Assembly (NCBI RefSeq): GCF_000426685.1
Contig: NZ_AUFV01000003.1
Location: 124,001 to 188,000, forward strand
Reading direction: 5' to 3'
DNA length: 64,000 nucleotides
From: Solimonas flava DSM 18980
GTDB taxonomy: Bacteria > Pseudomonadota > Gammaproteobacteria > Nevskiales > Nevskiaceae
Part shown: positions 912-19,999 of the stretch, piece by piece
Layout of the letters: the number at the start of each line of letters is the position of its first letter
Position numbering within the stretch: the first letter of the stretch is position 1
The notes under the pieces: generated by a model
Database searches by the model: none
What the model was told of the DNA's origin: nothing
The model's input: only the letters and a program-made list of their open reading frames with translations
Translations under genes and position numbers: made by a program

Positions 912-948
912 AATAAAAAACCCGATGGCCAGGGGAGGAGCCATCGGG
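912..948 (-). terminator. Rho-independent terminator of sRNA copy A
   Basis: On the minus strand the nine-base stem CCCGATGGC/GCCATCGGG (948-921) encloses a ten-base C-rich loop and is followed by TTTTTTATT. It also closes any read-through from polA towards the RND gene. Confidence 0.85.
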
Positions 949-1015
949 TCATGCTTTCCGGCTTGGGGATGCCGGACCCGCCCAGGGAGTGGAGGCGGGG
1001 AGCGGGACAGGGAGT
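912..1015 (-). ncRNA. Candidate C-rich-loop sRNA, copy A
   Basis: On the minus strand this stretch folds by eye into three hairpins. Stem CCCGCC/GGCGGG has loop TCCACTCCCTG. Stem TCCGGC/GCCGGA has loop ATCCCCAA. A terminator stem CCCGATGGC/GCCATCGGG has loop TCCTCCCCTG and is followed by six U. All three loops carry C-rich anti-Shine-Dalgarno motifs. It is a near-repeat of 1121-1227 and has the same orientation as polA. C-rich-loop sRNAs lie downstream of polA in Xanthomonas (sX13) and Pseudomonas (ErsA). The 5' end is only inferred. A weak -10 (CAATCT, 1034-1029) lies upstream. Confidence 0.7.
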
Positions 1016-1120
1016 GATCCCACTCGCAAGATTGGACGCCGGCCGCCGCGGAAAAGTTCCGGCACGTTCCGAAGTTTTTTTCGCGAAGCCGGCGGCGAAT
1101 GCCAAGCACCGGATTCGACA

Positions 1121-1158
1121 AATAAAAAAGCCCGGTGACTTGGGGGAAGCCACCGGGC
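1121..1158 (-). terminator. Rho-independent terminator of sRNA copy B
   Basis: On the minus strand the stem GCCCGGTG/CACCGGGC (1158-1130) with a C-rich loop is followed by TTTTTTATT. Confidence 0.85.
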
Positions 1159-1236
1159 CACGCTTTCCGGCCATGGGGGGATGCCGGACCCGCCCAGGGA
1201 GTGGAGGCGGGGAGCGGGACAGGGAGTATCGCCGCT
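1121..1236 (-). ncRNA. Candidate C-rich-loop sRNA, copy B (polA-proximal)
   Basis: This is the sibling of copy A. From 1227 down, its first about 45 bases are identical to copy A, including the hairpin CCCGCC/GGCGGG with loop TCCACTCCCTG. The second hairpin TCCGGC/GCCGGA has loop ATCCCCCCATG, and the terminator stem GCCCGGTG/CACCGGGC has a CTTCCCCC loop before six U. The stems co-vary relative to copy A (terminator stem CCCGATGGC against CCCGGTGGC), which supports selection for structure. A promoter-like TTGAAC/TCTAAT pair lies just upstream, predicting a transcript of about 110 nt. Function is inferred: binding of G-rich ribosome-binding regions of target mRNAs. Confidence 0.72.
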
Positions 1237-1242
1237 CAGGGG

Positions 1243-1273
1243 ATTAGATGTGGCCCCCGCCGGGGAAGTTCAA
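1243..1273 (-). promoter_or_regulatory. Candidate promoter of sRNA copy B
   Basis: On the minus strand TTGAAC (1273-1268) is followed after 19 bases by TCTAAT (1248-1243), which matches the sigma-70 -10 box at five of six positions. The same bases can be read as a heat-shock-like promoter, TTGAA then CCACATCTA. Which sigma factor acts cannot be decided by eye. The predicted start is near 1236, just ahead of the conserved sRNA sequence. Confidence 0.45.
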
Positions 1274-1389: not shown

Positions 1390-4215
1390 TCAGCTTCCGC
1401 TACTTGCGTGGCCGCTCGCGGCGTGGGCCGAATCCCACTCGGAACCGAAGCCGAAATCGGCGACCAGCGGCACATCGAGCTGGGCGATGCGCACCATGCG
1501 CGCGGCGATCAGCGGCGCCTGCTCGCGCAGCCGCGCCTCCGGACCTTCGAACACCAGTTCGTCGTGCACCTGCATGATCATGCGGATGTCCGGCGCCCGG
1601 CGCTGCAGATAGCGGGCGACGTCGACCATCGCCAGCTTGATGAGGTCGGCGGCGGTGCCCTGCAGCGGCGCGTTGATCGCGGTGCGCTCGGCGTACTGGC
1701 GCTGGGCCTGGTTGCTGGCGGCGATGTTCGGCAGGTACAGGCGGCGGCCGAACAGGGTCTCGACGTAGCCGGTCTCGCGCGCGCGCATGCGCGTCGTGTC
1801 CATGAAGTGCTTGACGCCCGGATAGCGGCCGAAGAAGCGATCGATGTAGTCCTGCGCCTCGCCGCGCGCAATGCCGAGCTGGCGCGCCAGGCCGAACGCC
1901 GACATGCCGTAGATCAGGCCGAAGTTGATCGCCTTGGCGGCGCGGCGCTGGTCGGTGCCGACCTGTTCGAGCGGCAGGCCGAAGACCTCGGCGGCGGTCG
2001 CCTGGTGAATGTCGAGCCCTTCGCGGAACGCCGCCTGCAGGCGCGGATCGGCCGAGAAATGCGCCATCAGGCGCAGTTCGATCTGCGAGTAGTCGATCGA
2101 CACCAGCGCGTTGCCGGGCTCGGCGATGAAGGCCTGGCGGATGCGCCGGCCTTCGGCGTTGCGCACCGGGATGTTCTGCAGGTTCGGGTCCGACGAGGAC
2201 AGGCGCCCGGTCGCGGCGACCGCCTGGTGGTACGAGGTGTGAATGCGGCCGGTGCGCGGATTGACCGCGAGCGGCAGCTGCTCGGTGTAGGTCGAGCGCA
2301 GTTTCTGCAGCGCCCGCCAGTCGAGGATCAGGCGCGGCAGCTTGTGCTCGGCGGCGAGGCTTTCGAGCACGTCCTCGGCGGTCGAGGGTTCGCCTTTCGG
2401 CGTCTTGCCGAGCACCGGCAGCTTGAGCTGTTCGTAGAGGATCGCGCCGAGCTGCTTCGGCGAGCCGAGGTTGAACTCGGTGCCGGCTTCCGCATAAGCC
2501 TCGCGCTGCAGCGCCGCCATGCGCTCGGCCAGTTCCAGCGAGATCTTGCCGAGCAGCGGCACATCGACCTTGACGCCGGTCTGCTCGATCTCGGCGAGCA
2601 CCGGCACCAGCGGCATCTCGATGGTCTCGTAGACCTTGTTCAGCGCCGCGCTCGCCATCAGGCGCGGATGCAGCGCCTGGTGCAGGCGCAGCGTGATGTC
2701 GGCGTCCTCCGCCGAGTAATGTCCGGCGACGTCGAGCGCGATCTGGTTGAAGGTCAGCTGGTTCTTGCCCTTGCCGGCGATGTCGGTGAAGGCGATCGTC
2801 TTGTGGCCGAGATACTTCTCGGCCAGCGTGTCCATGTCGTGACGGTTGCCGGCGGCGTCGAGCACGTAGCTCTGCAGCATCGTGTCGTGGGCGACGCCGG
2901 CGACCTTCACGCCATGGCGCGCGAAGACGTTGAGGTCGTACTTGATGTGCTGGCCGAGCTTCGGCTTGTCCGCGTCTTCGAGCAGCGGCCTGAGCTGGTC
3001 GAGCACCCAGTCGCGCGGCAGCTGCGGCGGCGCGCCGAGATAGTCGTGGCCGACCGGCACGTACCAGCCGCTGCCGGCCTCGACGGCGAAAGCGATGCCG
3101 ACCAGGTTCGCCTGGTTCGAATCGAGGCTGTCGGTCTCGGTGTCGACGCAGATCAGCTCGGCGGTGCGCAGCTTTTCGAGCATCGCCGCGAACACCGACT
3201 CTTCGGTGACCAGCGTCGCGACCGTCGCCTGCGGCGGCGGCAGCGGCGCGTCGGTCAGCGCTGCGGTCGGCGGCGCCTCGGGCGCTCCGGGCGCCGACGA
3301 GACCACGGAGGTCGGCACTTCCTGGCGTTCCGGCGCCGGCGGCAGCTCGCCGTTCTGCTGGCGCAGCTCGTCGATCCAGCGGCCGAAGCCGAGCCGCGTG
3401 TAGATCGCGGCCAGCTTGGCGACGTCCGGCGCGCGCGGCCTGAGTGCGTCGACCTGGATCGGCAGCGTCAGGTCGCAGCGGATCGTCGCCAGATCCCTGG
3501 CCATCGGCAGCTGGCCGAGCGCGGCGCGCAGCTTCTCGCCGATCTTGCCCTTGATCTGGCCGGCGTTGGCGACGACGTCGTCGAGCGTGCCGTATTCGTT
3601 GAGCCACTTCGCCGCCGTCTTCGGGCCGACGCCGTCGATGCCGGGAATGTTGTCGACGCTGTCGCCCATCAGCGCCAGATAGTCGACGATGCGCTCCGGC
3701 GGCACGCCGAAGCGTTCGATCACCGCGTCGCGGTCGAGGCGGCGGTTCTTCATGGTGTCGAGCAGGTGCACGCCGTCGTGCACCAGCTGCGCCATGTCCT
3801 TGTCGCCGGTGACGATCAGCACCGGCTGGCCGCGCTGCGCGGCCTGCGTCGCCAGCGTGCCGATGACGTCGTCGGCCTCGACGCCGGCTTCGGCGATCAC
3901 CGGCAGGCCCATCGCCTCCAGCATCTCGACGATCGCCGGGTACTGCGCCTTGAGCTCGGCCGGCGTCTCGTCGCGGTTGGCCTTGTACTCGGCGTAAATC
4001 TCGTGCCGGAAGTTGGTGCCCGGCGCGTCGAAGATGACGGCGATCTCCTCCGGCGCGTAATCCTTGAGCAGGCGCCGCAGCATGTTGCCCATGCCGTACA
4101 CGGCGCCGGTCGGCTCGCCGTGCGCATTCGACAGCGGCGGCAGCGCGAAGAACGCGCGGAACAGCCACGACGAGCCGTCGATCAGGATCAGCGGCTGGCG
4201 CGCGGCGTCGCTCAC
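1390..4215 (-). CDS. polA: DNA polymerase I
   Basis: Repair and Okazaki-fragment-processing polymerase of about 941 residues, the usual family length. Order: 5'-3' exonuclease (about 1-290; it begins with LILIDGSSWLFRAFFAL), 3'-5' exonuclease (about 340-530), polymerase (about 560-941). The proofreading residues are intact (VDTETDSL, IKYDLNVF, YSAEDAD). The polymerase motifs DYSQIELR, the O-helix RRAAKAINFGLIYG and QVHDELVFE are all present. The start is taken as the GTG at 4215 because it overlaps the lysA stop by four bases (GTGA). An in-frame GTG at 4227 is possible but has no spaced ribosome-binding site. Candidate sRNAs follow in the same orientation. Confidence 0.95.
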   Translation of the reverse strand: MSDAARQPLILIDGSSWLFRAFFALPPLSNAHGEPTGAVYGMGNMLRRLLKDYAPEEIAVIFDAPGTNFRHEIYAEYKANRDETPAELKAQYPAIVEMLEAMGLPVIAEAGVEADDVIGTLATQAAQRGQPVLIVTGDKDMAQLVHDGVHLLDTMKNRRLDRDAVIERFGVPPERIVDYLALMGDSVDNIPGIDGVGPKTAAKWLNEYGTLDDVVANAGQIKGKIGEKLRAALGQLPMARDLATIRCDLTLPIQVDALRPRAPDVAKLAAIYTRLGFGRWIDELRQQNGELPPAPERQEVPTSVVSSAPGAPEAPPTAALTDAPLPPPQATVATLVTEESVFAAMLEKLRTAELICVDTETDSLDSNQANLVGIAFAVEAGSGWYVPVGHDYLGAPPQLPRDWVLDQLRPLLEDADKPKLGQHIKYDLNVFARHGVKVAGVAHDTMLQSYVLDAAGNRHDMDTLAEKYLGHKTIAFTDIAGKGKNQLTFNQIALDVAGHYSAEDADITLRLHQALHPRLMASAALNKVYETIEMPLVPVLAEIEQTGVKVDVPLLGKISLELAERMAALQREAYAEAGTEFNLGSPKQLGAILYEQLKLPVLGKTPKGEPSTAEDVLESLAAEHKLPRLILDWRALQKLRSTYTEQLPLAVNPRTGRIHTSYHQAVAATGRLSSSDPNLQNIPVRNAEGRRIRQAFIAEPGNALVSIDYSQIELRLMAHFSADPRLQAAFREGLDIHQATAAEVFGLPLEQVGTDQRRAAKAINFGLIYGMSAFGLARQLGIARGEAQDYIDRFFGRYPGVKHFMDTTRMRARETGYVETLFGRRLYLPNIAASNQAQRQYAERTAINAPLQGTAADLIKLAMVDVARYLQRRAPDIRMIMQVHDELVFEGPEARLREQAPLIAARMVRIAQLDVPLVADFGFGSEWDSAHAASGHASSGS

Positions 4216-5459
4216 GGCAGCAGGCACTCGCCGCGCACGAGATCGTCGAAGGTCTCGCGCGCGCGCACCAAGTGCGCGGCGTCACCGTCGACCATCACCT
4301 CGGCCGCGCGCGGCCGGCTGTTGTAGTTCGACGCCATCGTGAAGCCGTAGGCGCCGGCGGTGCGCACCGCGAGCAGATCGCCCGGCGCGATCGTCAGCAG
4401 GCGGTCCTTGCCGAGCCAGTCGCCGGACTCGCAGACCGGACCGACGATGTCGTAGACCTGCGCCGGCGCGTCGTGGCGCTCGACCGCCGGCACGATGTCC
4501 ATCCAGGCCTGATACAGCGTCGGCCGCAGCAGATCGTTCATCGCTGCATCGACGATCGCGAAGCGCTTGTCCTCGCCGCCCTTGAGACCGAGCACGCGGG
4601 TGACGAGCAGGCCGGCGTTGCCGGCGATCGCGCGGCCCGGCTCGGTCAGGATCCTGAGGCCGAGCGCTTCGAGTTTCGGCCGCAGCGCGCCGGCCCACTG
4701 CGAGGGCTCGATCGGCTGCTCGTCGCGATAGCGCACGCCGAGGCCGCCGCCGACGTCGAGGTGGCGCAGCACGATGCCGTGCCCGCGCAGGCGCTCGACC
4801 AGCGCCAGCACGCGGTCGAGCGCGTCGAGGAACGGCGAAACCTGCAGCAGCTGCGAACCGATGTGGTTGGCGATGCCGACGATCTCGATGCCGTCCATCG
4901 TCGCCGCCTGCCGGTACAGGCGCTCGGCGCTGGCGATGTCGACGCCGAACTTGTTGTTCTTCAGACCCGTCGAGATGTACGGGTGGGTCTTGGCGTCGAC
5001 GTCCGGATTGACGCGCAAGGCGATGCGCGCGCGCTGGCCCATCAGCCGCGCGGTCGCGTCGAGCAGATCGAGCTCGTACTCGGACTCGACGTTGAAGCAG
5101 TAGATGCCGGACGCCAGCGCCAGGCGGATTTCGTCCTCGGTCTTGCCGACGCCGGAGAACACGACCTTGCCCGGATCACCGCCGGCGCGCAGCACGCGCT
5201 GCAGCTCGCCGCCGGAGACGATGTCGAAGCCGGCGCCGAGCCGCGCCAGCGTCTGCAGTACGGCGAGGTTGGAATTGGCCTTGACCGCGTAGCAGACCCA
5301 GTGATCGAGCCCGGCCAGCGCGTCGTCGAACGCGTGGAAATGACGCTGCAGCGTGGCCTTCGAATAGACGTACAGCGGCGTGCCGTAGCGTTCGGCGAGT
5401 TCGGCGACGGGCGTCTCTTCGGCGTGCAGCACGCCGTGGCGGTATTCGAAATGGTCCAC
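4212..5459 (-). CDS. lysA: Diaminopimelate decarboxylase
   Basis: PLP enzyme (415 residues) that converts meso-diaminopimelate to L-lysine, the last step of lysine synthesis. It has the fold-type III layout: an N-terminal barrel with the PLP lysine in YAVKANSNLAVL, then HIGSQL, the glycine loop GGGLGVRYRDEQP, and the dimer-interface catalytic segment CESGDWLGKDR near the C-terminus. It lies directly downstream of a small lipoprotein gene (59-base gap), as in Pseudomonas lppL-lysA, and its stop overlaps polA by four bases. lptM-lysA-polA are therefore probably co-transcribed. Confidence 0.95.
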   Translation of the reverse strand: MDHFEYRHGVLHAEETPVAELAERYGTPLYVYSKATLQRHFHAFDDALAGLDHWVCYAVKANSNLAVLQTLARLGAGFDIVSGGELQRVLRAGGDPGKVVFSGVGKTEDEIRLALASGIYCFNVESEYELDLLDATARLMGQRARIALRVNPDVDAKTHPYISTGLKNNKFGVDIASAERLYRQAATMDGIEIVGIANHIGSQLLQVSPFLDALDRVLALVERLRGHGIVLRHLDVGGGLGVRYRDEQPIEPSQWAGALRPKLEALGLRILTEPGRAIAGNAGLLVTRVLGLKGGEDKRFAIVDAAMNDLLRPTLYQAWMDIVPAVERHDAPAQVYDIVGPVCESGDWLGKDRLLTIAPGDLLAVRTAGAYGFTMASNYNSRPRAAEVMVDGDAAHLVRARETFDDLVRGECLLP

Positions 5460-18191: not shown

Positions 18192-18343
18192 CGTGCAACT
18201 CGGTGGGGACGCAGCGCCCATTGTCGCACGGGGCGCGGCGCCGCTGAGGATTCCACCGGATACGGCCGCCGCATCGGGTTTGTTCAGAATCGGGGCCGGT
18301 GCCATCCCCCTCCGTCGTACCCGGCACCGTCCAGGGAGAATGC

Positions 18344-19999
18344 ATGAGCGATGCAGCGGACTGCGCGCCACTGGCGCCGGGCGCACACGCGGGCGCGTGG
18401 CAGGTCACCGGCCTCATCGGACGCGACGCTTTCATCTGCCGCTACCGCGCCGACGACGGCCGACGGCAGGCCGTGCTGCACGAGCTGCTGCCGCAGACCT
18501 TCGTGCGCCGCGACGGCGACGCCGTGCAGCTGCGCGACGCCGAAGACCGCAGCACGCTGCGCTGGTGGCTGCGCAACTATCTCGACAAGGCCGCGGCGCT
18601 GGCGGCGCTCGGCCAGCCCGGGCTGGCGCGCGTGCTCGATGCCTTCGAAGCCGGCGGCACCGGCTACTGCGTACTCGAGGCCGCCGGCGACGACAGCGTG
18701 GCCGCGCGCGTGCGCCGGCACGGCGCGCTCGACTGGCATGAACTGCTGCCGGCGCTGCGCCCGGTGCTCGATGCGCTGGCGGCGGCGCACGCCCAGAATC
18801 TGGTGATCCGCGACATCGCGCCGGCCCAGCTCGTCTGGCGGCCGGACGGCCGGCTGGTGCTCGCCGGCTTCGGTCCGCTGCGCGCGCCGGTGCGCTTCCG
18901 TGCCCAGACGATCAGCTGCACGGCACCGCTCGCCTACGCCGCGCCCGAGGAACGGCACGCCGCCGGCAGCGTCGGCCCATGGACCGACGTGCACGCGCTG
19001 GCGGCCAGCTGCGCGTACGCGCTGTTCGGTCGCGTGCCGCCCGACGCGACGCGGCGCGACGGCGCACCGCTGCGCTTCGCGCTCGCCGATCCGCTGCCGG
19101 CCGCGTTGCGCGCCGTACTCGAAGCCTCCCTCGCCGCCGACGGCGGCGAACGGCCGCAGATCACCACCTGGCTGCGCGCCTGGCCGGCGCCGGCGGCCGG
19201 CCCCGCCGCGCAGGCAGCCCCGGCCGGCTCCGGCGGCGGCGTACCGCGGCTGGCGGTCGCCGCAGCGCTCGGCGCGATCGCCGTCGGCACCGCCGTCTGG
19301 CTGTCGCAGCAGGCGAACGCGCCGTCGCCAGCCCCGGCCGCGGCCGGGGCTCCGGAAACCGCCGCCACCGCCGCGGCACCGGCGACCGCCCCGGAGCCGG
19401 CGACGCCGACCGCCGCGTCCGGCGCGAACCCCGATGCGAACCCCGGCGCCGACTCCGGCCCGGCCGAAGCCGAGGCCGGCGGCGGCGCGCCGACACCTGA
19501 GGCGCGCGTCGCGTCGGAGCCGGCACCCGCGCCGCCAGCGGCGGCGGCGGCGGCCGCGCAGCCCATGGCGACGCCCGGCACGCGCCGCGCCGCCGCCGAG
19601 CCGCGGCAAGATGCTCCGGCGCGCCCGGCACCGGCTGCGGCGGCCGCCCCCGCCGTCGATCCGGATGCGCCGCTGCCGCCGCCGGCGCCGCTGGCGGTGA
19701 CGATCACCACGCCGACGCTCAACGTCGCCGATCCCGCCGCCGAAGCCGAGGCCGAACGCCGCCGGCGCGCGGCCGCGCACCTCGCCCAGCTCGACGCCGA
19801 GAAAGCGCAGTGCAGCACCCATGTCTCCGAACTGCTCGGCGACCGTGCCATCACCTACGCCGACCTCGCCGCGATGCGCGGCGTCGAGCGGCTCGACGAC
19901 GGCCGTCTGCGCACGCCGCGCCTGCGCACCGACGACGACCGGCAGGTCTCGCTGCTGGTCGACACGCACGGTTGCGTCGTCAACATCCGCCGCTACTGA
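18344..19999 (+). CDS. Membrane-anchored protein kinase-like protein, probable pseudokinase
   Basis: 551 residues; the start is fixed by AGGGAGA just upstream. Residues about 17-280 look like a Ser/Thr kinase fold: a catalytic-loop equivalent [13 protein letters not shown] (Asp157), an APE-like YAAPEE (198-203) and DVHALA for the F-helix. The glycine loop is poor, the VAIK lysine is missing (AVLHEL at 43-48) and DFG is AGFG (174-177), so catalysis is doubtful. A transmembrane helix (about 302-320) leads to a long Ala/Pro/Glu linker. A conserved-looking C-terminal domain has two cysteines ([18 protein letters not shown]). Role unknown; divergent from ttcA. Confidence 0.72.

Follow-up and report, generated by a model that had tools for sequence, protein, structure and literature searches.

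Tandem small RNA genes of the anti-hemB family with sigma-E-like promoters downstream of polA in Solimonas

Two similar RNA genes lie downstream of polA

The window analysed here, a 64-kb (64,000-nucleotide) stretch of DNA from Solimonas (Nevskiales, Gammaproteobacteria), carries two similar RNA genes on its minus strand. Their upstream neighbour on the same strand is a 945-aa open reading frame (ORF; positions 1390 to 4227) which we take, by recognition, to be polA, encoding DNA polymerase I; used as a tblastn query, it recovered counterparts in relatives. The polA-proximal gene, copy B, spans positions 1122 to 1237 with a predicted transcript of about 116 nt, and the polA-distal gene, copy A, spans positions 912 to 1025 with a predicted transcript of about 114 nt. 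The transcript starts were deduced from the promoters described below, and the extents of about 1237 to 1122 and about 1025 to 912 hold on that premise. An earlier note on this DNA had described two near-repeats on the minus strand. That observation is confirmed, and it understated the case; it missed the name of the family, the sigma-E-like promoters, a fourth hairpin and the longer arrays found elsewhere.

Both copies scored above the curated (gathering) cut-off of the Rfam family RF02837, anti-hemB, which is 49.5 bits: copy B with 56.5 bits at 1122–1213 and copy A with 56.2 bits at 912–1001. They are thereby members of the family by score, and in the whole genome of this strain they were the sole matches above the cut-off. 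Since anti-hemB is a betaproteobacterial name, finding it in Gammaproteobacteria is of interest. The hemB neighbourhood from which the name derives is not present here, as tblastn showed no hemB in the 64-kb window; synteny forms no part of the Rfam criterion. The covariance-model search that the earlier note had proposed as a check thus placed RF02837 above its cut-off, while the sX13 model (RF02232) aligned over its full length with 24.8 and 20.4 bits, under its cut-off of 50, and the ErsA model (RF01719, cut-off 50 bits) gave no match between positions 800 and 1420 at E values up to 10. In the same interval the BjrC80 and ar14 models also gave sub-threshold scores (27.2 and 27.1 bits), with ar7 similar, and because these resemble the scores of sX13 such values alone prove little. 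The RybB model reached 18.1 bits there, below its cut-off of 40. Both copies lie beside polA, one of the two genes that bound the polA-engB interval considered below; engB itself was not found by tblastn in the window, only 911 bases of which lie beyond copy A.

The RNAs are predicted to form four hairpins with C-rich loops

The predicted folds (−59.3 kcal/mol for copy A and −59.0 kcal/mol for copy B) consist, from 5′ to 3′, of a 5′ hairpin (hairpin 0) and hairpin 1, both with CUCCCUG, then hairpin 2 and a terminator. The three hairpins per copy that had been noted before are part of this fold, and a fourth, the 5′ hairpin with a second CUCCCU, is predicted in addition. The C-rich character of the loops was confirmed: the loop of hairpin 1 is CUCCCU in both copies, that of hairpin 2 is CCCC in copy A and CCCCCC in copy B, and that of the terminator-like hairpin 3 is CCUCCCCU in copy A (919–950, minus strand) and CCCCC in copy B (1129–1159, minus strand). 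The CUCCCUG seed of hairpins 0 and 1 is the same in both copies, which differ only in loops 2 and 3. The claim that each copy ends in a U-tract was borne out, with terminator-like 3′ stems; three terminator-like sites were detected between positions 780 and 1500, namely the two 3′ stems and one site nested within the stem of copy A. The cores of both RNAs folded better than all of 200 dinucleotide shuffles (z −4.74 and −3.65), and longer stretches that included the flanks were less extreme (z −2.56 and −3.30, with two and none of 200 shuffles equalling them).

Conservation of the fold was followed with a model, R2, built on sequences chosen for being in register; in another model, R1, most of hairpin 1 is missing, its register having been shifted by MAFFT. 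In 111 Nevskiales copies aligned with R2, 94.8% of the cells were paired, a figure favoured by the fitting of this alignment to the structure, and pairing was at most 49.2% when the partners were slid by one to three columns as a control. At all 21 modelled pairs both sides had changed in some sequences, which none of 500 shuffles matched, so that the compensating changes previously seen between the two terminator stems extend to covariation of the stems over the 111 copies, and the hairpins are conserved in related genomes. Two closing pairs are often open: of 109 rows, 46 do not form the outermost pair of hairpin 1, and 60 do not form the corresponding pair of hairpin 2. A 5′ hairpin with CUCCC was found in 33 of 40 family-level leaders, a count restricted to leaders with a scored promoter (five others were excluded), and its stem changes as matched pairs (GAGTG/CACTC in 14, GAGCG/CGCTC in 9, GAACG/CGTTC in 3, and others).

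Sigma-E-like motifs precede the copies

Upstream of each core, starting at a distance of 59 nt, there is a motif with the shape of a sigma-E/AlgU promoter. For copy B (1244–1272, minus strand) it consists of TGAACTT (1272–1266), a spacer of 17 nt and TCTAA (1248–1244), and for copy A (1032–1060, minus strand) of GGAACTT (1060–1054), 17 nt and TCCAA (1036–1032). The pattern had four matches in the window against 0.16 expected from shuffles, and two of the four are these motifs. A scan for sigma-70 promoters found none. Among the polA-linked copies of 55 Nevskiales genomes the motif was present in 91 of 99, where shuffles averaged 2.75 and never exceeded 7; its spacer measured 16 nt in 79 copies and 17 nt in 12, and a stricter form was present in 47 of 99 against 0.02 from shuffles. 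Several of the eight copies lacking the motif resemble small departures from the pattern. Across the class, 78 of the 103 matches at the locus defined below reached a promoter score of at least 8 (shuffles: mean 0.6, maximum 4); the score was too low in the other 25, which counts against the explanation we favour.

The genome encodes RpoE (290.5 bits, cut-off 236.15), followed by ORFs that by eye resemble RseA and RseB, as well as Hfq (100.1 bits, cut-off 61.7). Even when the pattern was loosened, the region upstream of rpoE did not match it, and the motif therefore has no positive control within this genome. A sigma-E/AlgU-like promoter of its own stands before each copy, and expression from it would depend on RpoE.

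Copies and arrays in Nevskiales

Among relatives we obtained 128 matches to RF02837 from 58 of 61 genomes (the genome of this strain included), with the Rfam cut-off exceeded in only 12 of the 61. DNA was in hand for 112 of the matches, and 99 of these lay downstream of polA on the same strand, across 55 genomes: a single copy in 34 genomes, two in 7, three in 8, four in 3 and five in 3. By model R2 one array (L062) holds six. All 99 polA-linked copies contain CUCCCU, a word that the search model favours. The gene engB was present in the fetched DNA, whose flanks are short, of 35 of the 55 genomes and of one of 11 Solimonas genomes (G010). This comparison of the regions downstream of polA, which had been suggested as a check, also bears on the duplication claimed from the window. 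Copies in the same position in genomes G000 and G007 are 91% identical and the two copies inside G000 are 76% identical, which places the duplication before the split of G000 and G007, with both copies kept since.

Predicted targets

As the invariant loop CUCCCUG is complementary to CAGGGAG, we took CAGGGAG in front of an ATG as a predicted target site. The pattern CAGGGAG-N2-11-ATG occurred 49 times in the genome against 4 for the reversed pattern, and similar counts were obtained in all 11 genomes of the genus (34–60 against 1–19). One match lies inside the window (18332–18346, plus strand, ATG at 18344), in front of a gene whose product contains a protein kinase domain (Pkinase at 35.4 bits against a cut-off of 31.7) and which is accordingly a predicted target.

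From the 48 distinct sites we obtained 36 ORFs with a length of 80 aa or more, of which several were cut by the ends of the fetched DNA. By a simple hydrophobicity rule, 17 of the 36 had export- or membrane-like N-termini, compared with 2 of 22 ORFs behind the near-identical word CAAGGAG (30 of 60 control sites fetched); in a second species the figure was 12 of 24 (40 of 52 sites fetched). Outer-membrane Pfam families (TonB receptor or plug, OEP, porins, secretin, beta-barrel) were found in 8 of 34 CAGGGAG proteins and in none of 20 CAAGGAG controls (p 0.017), a comparison that left out three of the 36 ORFs, included one protein of 76 aa and covered 20 of the 22 controls. Before ATG, CAAGGAG is only twice as frequent as its reversed counterpart (60 against 29), so more of the control sites are probably false starts and the contrast is exaggerated.

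These counts can also be read in another way, to which we give appreciable but lesser weight: the sRNAs would be real and sigma-E-driven, the second copy would serve dosage only, targets would be few, and CAGGGAG before ATG would mostly reflect a preference of exported genes for this ribosome-binding site. GGGAG is indeed Shine-Dalgarno-like, so that regulation does not follow merely from finding it in front of ATG. The CUCCCUG seeds of hairpins 0 and 1 are identical in both copies, and because this dominant seed is shared, the suggestion that the copies serve two different target sets was not supported. Comparison with the second species, again with 40 of 52 sites fetched, moreover left only one pair that looks orthologous and free of suspected transfer, a CRP-like regulator (78% identity) that carries the site in both species. 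Against this reading, the 91% and 76% identities given above indicate that both copies have been retained since before the split of the two genomes, and CAAGGAG shows no such bias towards exported proteins, with the caveat of false starts.

Two Solimonas species share an efflux outer membrane protein (OEP) behind the site that shows no difference over its 419 compared residues (L359:1514–2770 and L473:470–1726). The polA parts of the same species are 84% identical, which suggests recent transfer, and for that reason the protein was kept out of the conserved targets. PilH was considered as a target and rejected: the response regulator concerned, one of the predicted targets, is PilH-like by eye, but the ORF upstream of it is dihydroorotase-like and none of the family models identified it as PilH. 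In the accessible text of the sX13 literature, pilH is a proven target of sX13. Avoidance of the seed was likewise rejected, as the rarity of AGGGAG in the window is explained by Markov expectation (2 seen and 2.7 expected in the window with the sRNAs masked, 8 and 5.9 in 25 Nevskiales loci, 69 and 60.6 in betaproteobacterial loci).

The polA-engB locus in other bacteria

Model R1 was built from 29 Nevskiales copies alone and is blind to sX13. Over 274 genomes of the class it gave a match at E 0.001 or better in 125, and outside Nevskiales it gave 140 matches in 122 genomes. We examined 127 of the 140, setting aside 13 further matches in the same genomes as well as seven rows from the own order. 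The match was flanked by polA and a convergent engB in 49 cases, by engB only in 28 and by polA only in 18; one adjoined hemB, and 31 had none of these genes. Cytochrome c4 lay downstream in 7 of the 31, which puts 103 of the 127 at the polA-engB-cytochrome c4 locus, two true sX13 genes among them, and 24 elsewhere. An exact CUCCCU was present in 82 of the 103; it was lacking in 21, which again counts against the explanation we favour. In a sample of the phylum (299 genomes) there was a match in 21, the two outside the class being weak (29.1 and 27.1 bits). We propose a class of polA-engB C-rich sRNAs, defined by a match to the RNA model, a place on the polA or engB side and an own sigma-E-like promoter, features that both Solimonas genes display. 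It comes with a testable rule: between polA and engB, seek a promoter of the form GGAACTT-N16/17-TCTNA together with a CUCCCU loop.

Counted among the 24 matches elsewhere are four (L250 in G145, L273 in G074, L281 in G152 and L286 in G272) that occupy the opposite strand of the interval from engB to polA, facing polA, with a sigma-E-like motif upstream. Pairs of short members of 66–71 nt above the RF02837 cut-off were seen in L305 (2017–2286) and L308 (2012–2283), away from polA; they have two hairpins by eye, and the fetched region contains a tmRNA gene.

The family to which the Solimonas genes belong by sequence and structure, with a CUCCCUG-RGCGG core, is also known as Burkholderia RNA 7 and corresponds to ncS04 of Burkholderia cenocepacia in the accessible part of PMC5688073. 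Of the matches listed, 115 loci outside Nevskiales were used, with engB at 107, hemB at 108, both at 104 and neither at 4; polA was found at one of these listed loci, in an Acidiferrobacterales genome. The RNA is directed at the 3′ end of engB wherever engB adjoins, as in B. ambifaria (L082), B. cenocepacia (L112), Hydrogenophilales (L086) and Aromatoleum (L089), where it lies between engB and hemB and cytochrome c4 follows beyond. The two forms differ in several respects. In the named Burkholderia loci anti-hemB is divergent from hemB with one exact-pattern match per locus, and has a TATCAT/TATGAT-like box upstream and, by eye, no C-rich loops 2 and 3, whereas Solimonas has two copies by polA, sigma-E-like promoters and C-rich loops throughout. 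The strict sigma-E pattern occurred in 20 of the 115 listed loci; most of the titles shown were Burkholderiaceae, with the different box.

sX13 of Xanthomonadaceae shares the place downstream of polA and the C-rich apical loops. In the accessible text of PMC3771888, sX13 uses its C-rich loops to repress mRNAs in which G-rich motifs lie close to the start, and acts independently of Hfq. The sigma-E-like motif was absent from both sX13 loci that we found, and together these two points indicate that the use of promoter and chaperone varies within the family. The sX13 model matched in 12 of the 274 class genomes and exceeded its cut-off in two; where it scored 116.7 and 103.2 bits, R1 scored 38.1 and 38.5 bits (E 7.9e-7 and 1.2e-6 over the whole genome). 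ErsA lies between polA and engB in Pseudomonas aeruginosa, depends on sigma-22, is linked to envelope stress and lowers the porin OprD, as far as the available portions of PMC7565897 and PMC8575079 describe it; the Solimonas promoter sequence fits this sigma-22/sigma-E feature. In G221, a genome that PrrF marks as Pseudomonas-like, the gene of the Pseudomon-1/ErsA family (121.3 bits) lies downstream of polA behind TGAACTT-N17-TCATA, and engB was not found in the fetched flank. Similarity of the RNA itself was weak, with 20.7 bits for R1 without filters and 13.1 bits for R2, and the class run of R1 found nothing at this place. Spot 42 (spf) of Escherichia coli occupies the same interval in the same orientation, between polA and a convergent yihA, the engB counterpart by tblastn; the Nevskiales models were not significant at spf (R1 8.0 bits, E 0.8; R2 6.6 bits).

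Could the likeness to sX13 and ErsA be convergence, such that any C-rich, terminator-ended RNA next to polA would score? We consider this unlikely. The low ErsA scores point that way, as do the sub-threshold scores of other C-rich families: besides the values given for the window, the alphaproteobacterial ar14, ar7 and BjrC80 models matched L334 and L337 below threshold, and ar14 reached up to 40.5 bits elsewhere, which may mean distant kinship or common C-rich composition. Set against this are the recovery of both sX13 places by a model blind to sX13, the 48.3 bits that the sX13 model (cut-off 50) and the 37.1 bits that the ErsA model gave to copies of one Nevskiales array (L334), and the gene order common to these loci. 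Judged from these comparisons, there is good support for homology with sX13, homology with ErsA is probable, and the relation to Spot 42 is positional only. The earlier note's assignment to a class of polA-side sRNAs accordingly holds for sX13, by the R1 matches, and for ErsA, by place and a like promoter, and fails for Spot 42. That the hairpins are mere polA terminators kept as structures, as their position just 3′ of polA on the same strand and their U-tract ends could suggest, is highly improbable in view of the CUCCCU word in every polA-linked copy (which the search model favours), the motif at a near-fixed distance in 91 of 99, its presence also at 14 of the 22 class matches away from the locus with enough upstream DNA, the betaproteobacterial RNAs that diverge from hemB in fetched DNA without polA, and the standing of sX13 and ErsA as sRNAs studied in the accessible parts of PMC3771888 and PMC7565897.

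Proposed function and origin

The computations establish the sequence family, conserved structure, promoter motif, synteny and duplication, and from these we infer transcription, RpoE dependence, use of Hfq, pairing and repression. The best reading, which we hold to be likely, is that of a duplicated sRNA which responds to envelope stress and keeps ribosomes from binding envelope mRNAs; this reading brings together the repression of G-rich motifs by sX13, the porin target and sigma-22 dependence of ErsA, and the predicted target set. Upon envelope stress, each of two tandem trans-acting sRNAs would be transcribed from its own RpoE (sigma-E) promoter into a compact molecule with four hairpins, closed at its 3′ end by an intrinsic terminator. 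The CUCCCUG loops, above all those of hairpins 0 and 1, would then pair with CAGGGAG at the ribosome-binding sites of about 36 genes, many of them for outer-membrane and other exported proteins, and by preventing ribosome binding would lower the load of new envelope proteins. MicA and RybB are sigma-E-induced repressors of outer-membrane proteins, the very function proposed for the Solimonas copies, and together with the action of ErsA on a porin they provide a parallel mode.

The Solimonas gene would be the Nevskiales form of an old polA-engB sRNA that goes by the name of anti-hemB in Burkholderia and of sX13 in Xanthomonas, and whose Pseudomonas form is probably ErsA. We lean, with somewhat less assurance, towards a single ancestral sigma-E-driven envelope repressor at polA-engB that would pre-date the split of Gamma- and Betaproteobacteria, would have received a new name in each lineage and would have left sigma-E control in both Xanthomonas and Burkholderia. 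In Nevskiales it would have given rise to arrays of up to six siblings, the majority of which kept a promoter of their own, and the enteric Spot 42 may be a replaced or unrecognisable descendant. Such an origin would unite separately named families and would supply a hypothesis of function for anti-hemB, which is a table entry in the accessible literature.

Taken singly, the genes belong to an existing family, RF02837. The accessible parts of the literature compared (PMC5688073, PMC3521395, PMC3771888, PMC7565897, PMC8575079, PMC10987360 and PMC11722255) contained neither the sigma-E-like promoters nor the arrays, nor the form with four hairpins, nor a union of anti-hemB with sX13 and, probably, ErsA at a single locus. 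Our search, with subscription literature mostly outside its scope, found none that links anti-hemB, sX13 and ErsA, and none that treats sX13 together with ErsA. The natural arrays of one to six copies offer material for studying why sRNAs multiply. One five-copy array (L069, G055) contains a gap of about 1.35 kb (2777–4132), with engB still beyond, which may be an insertion.
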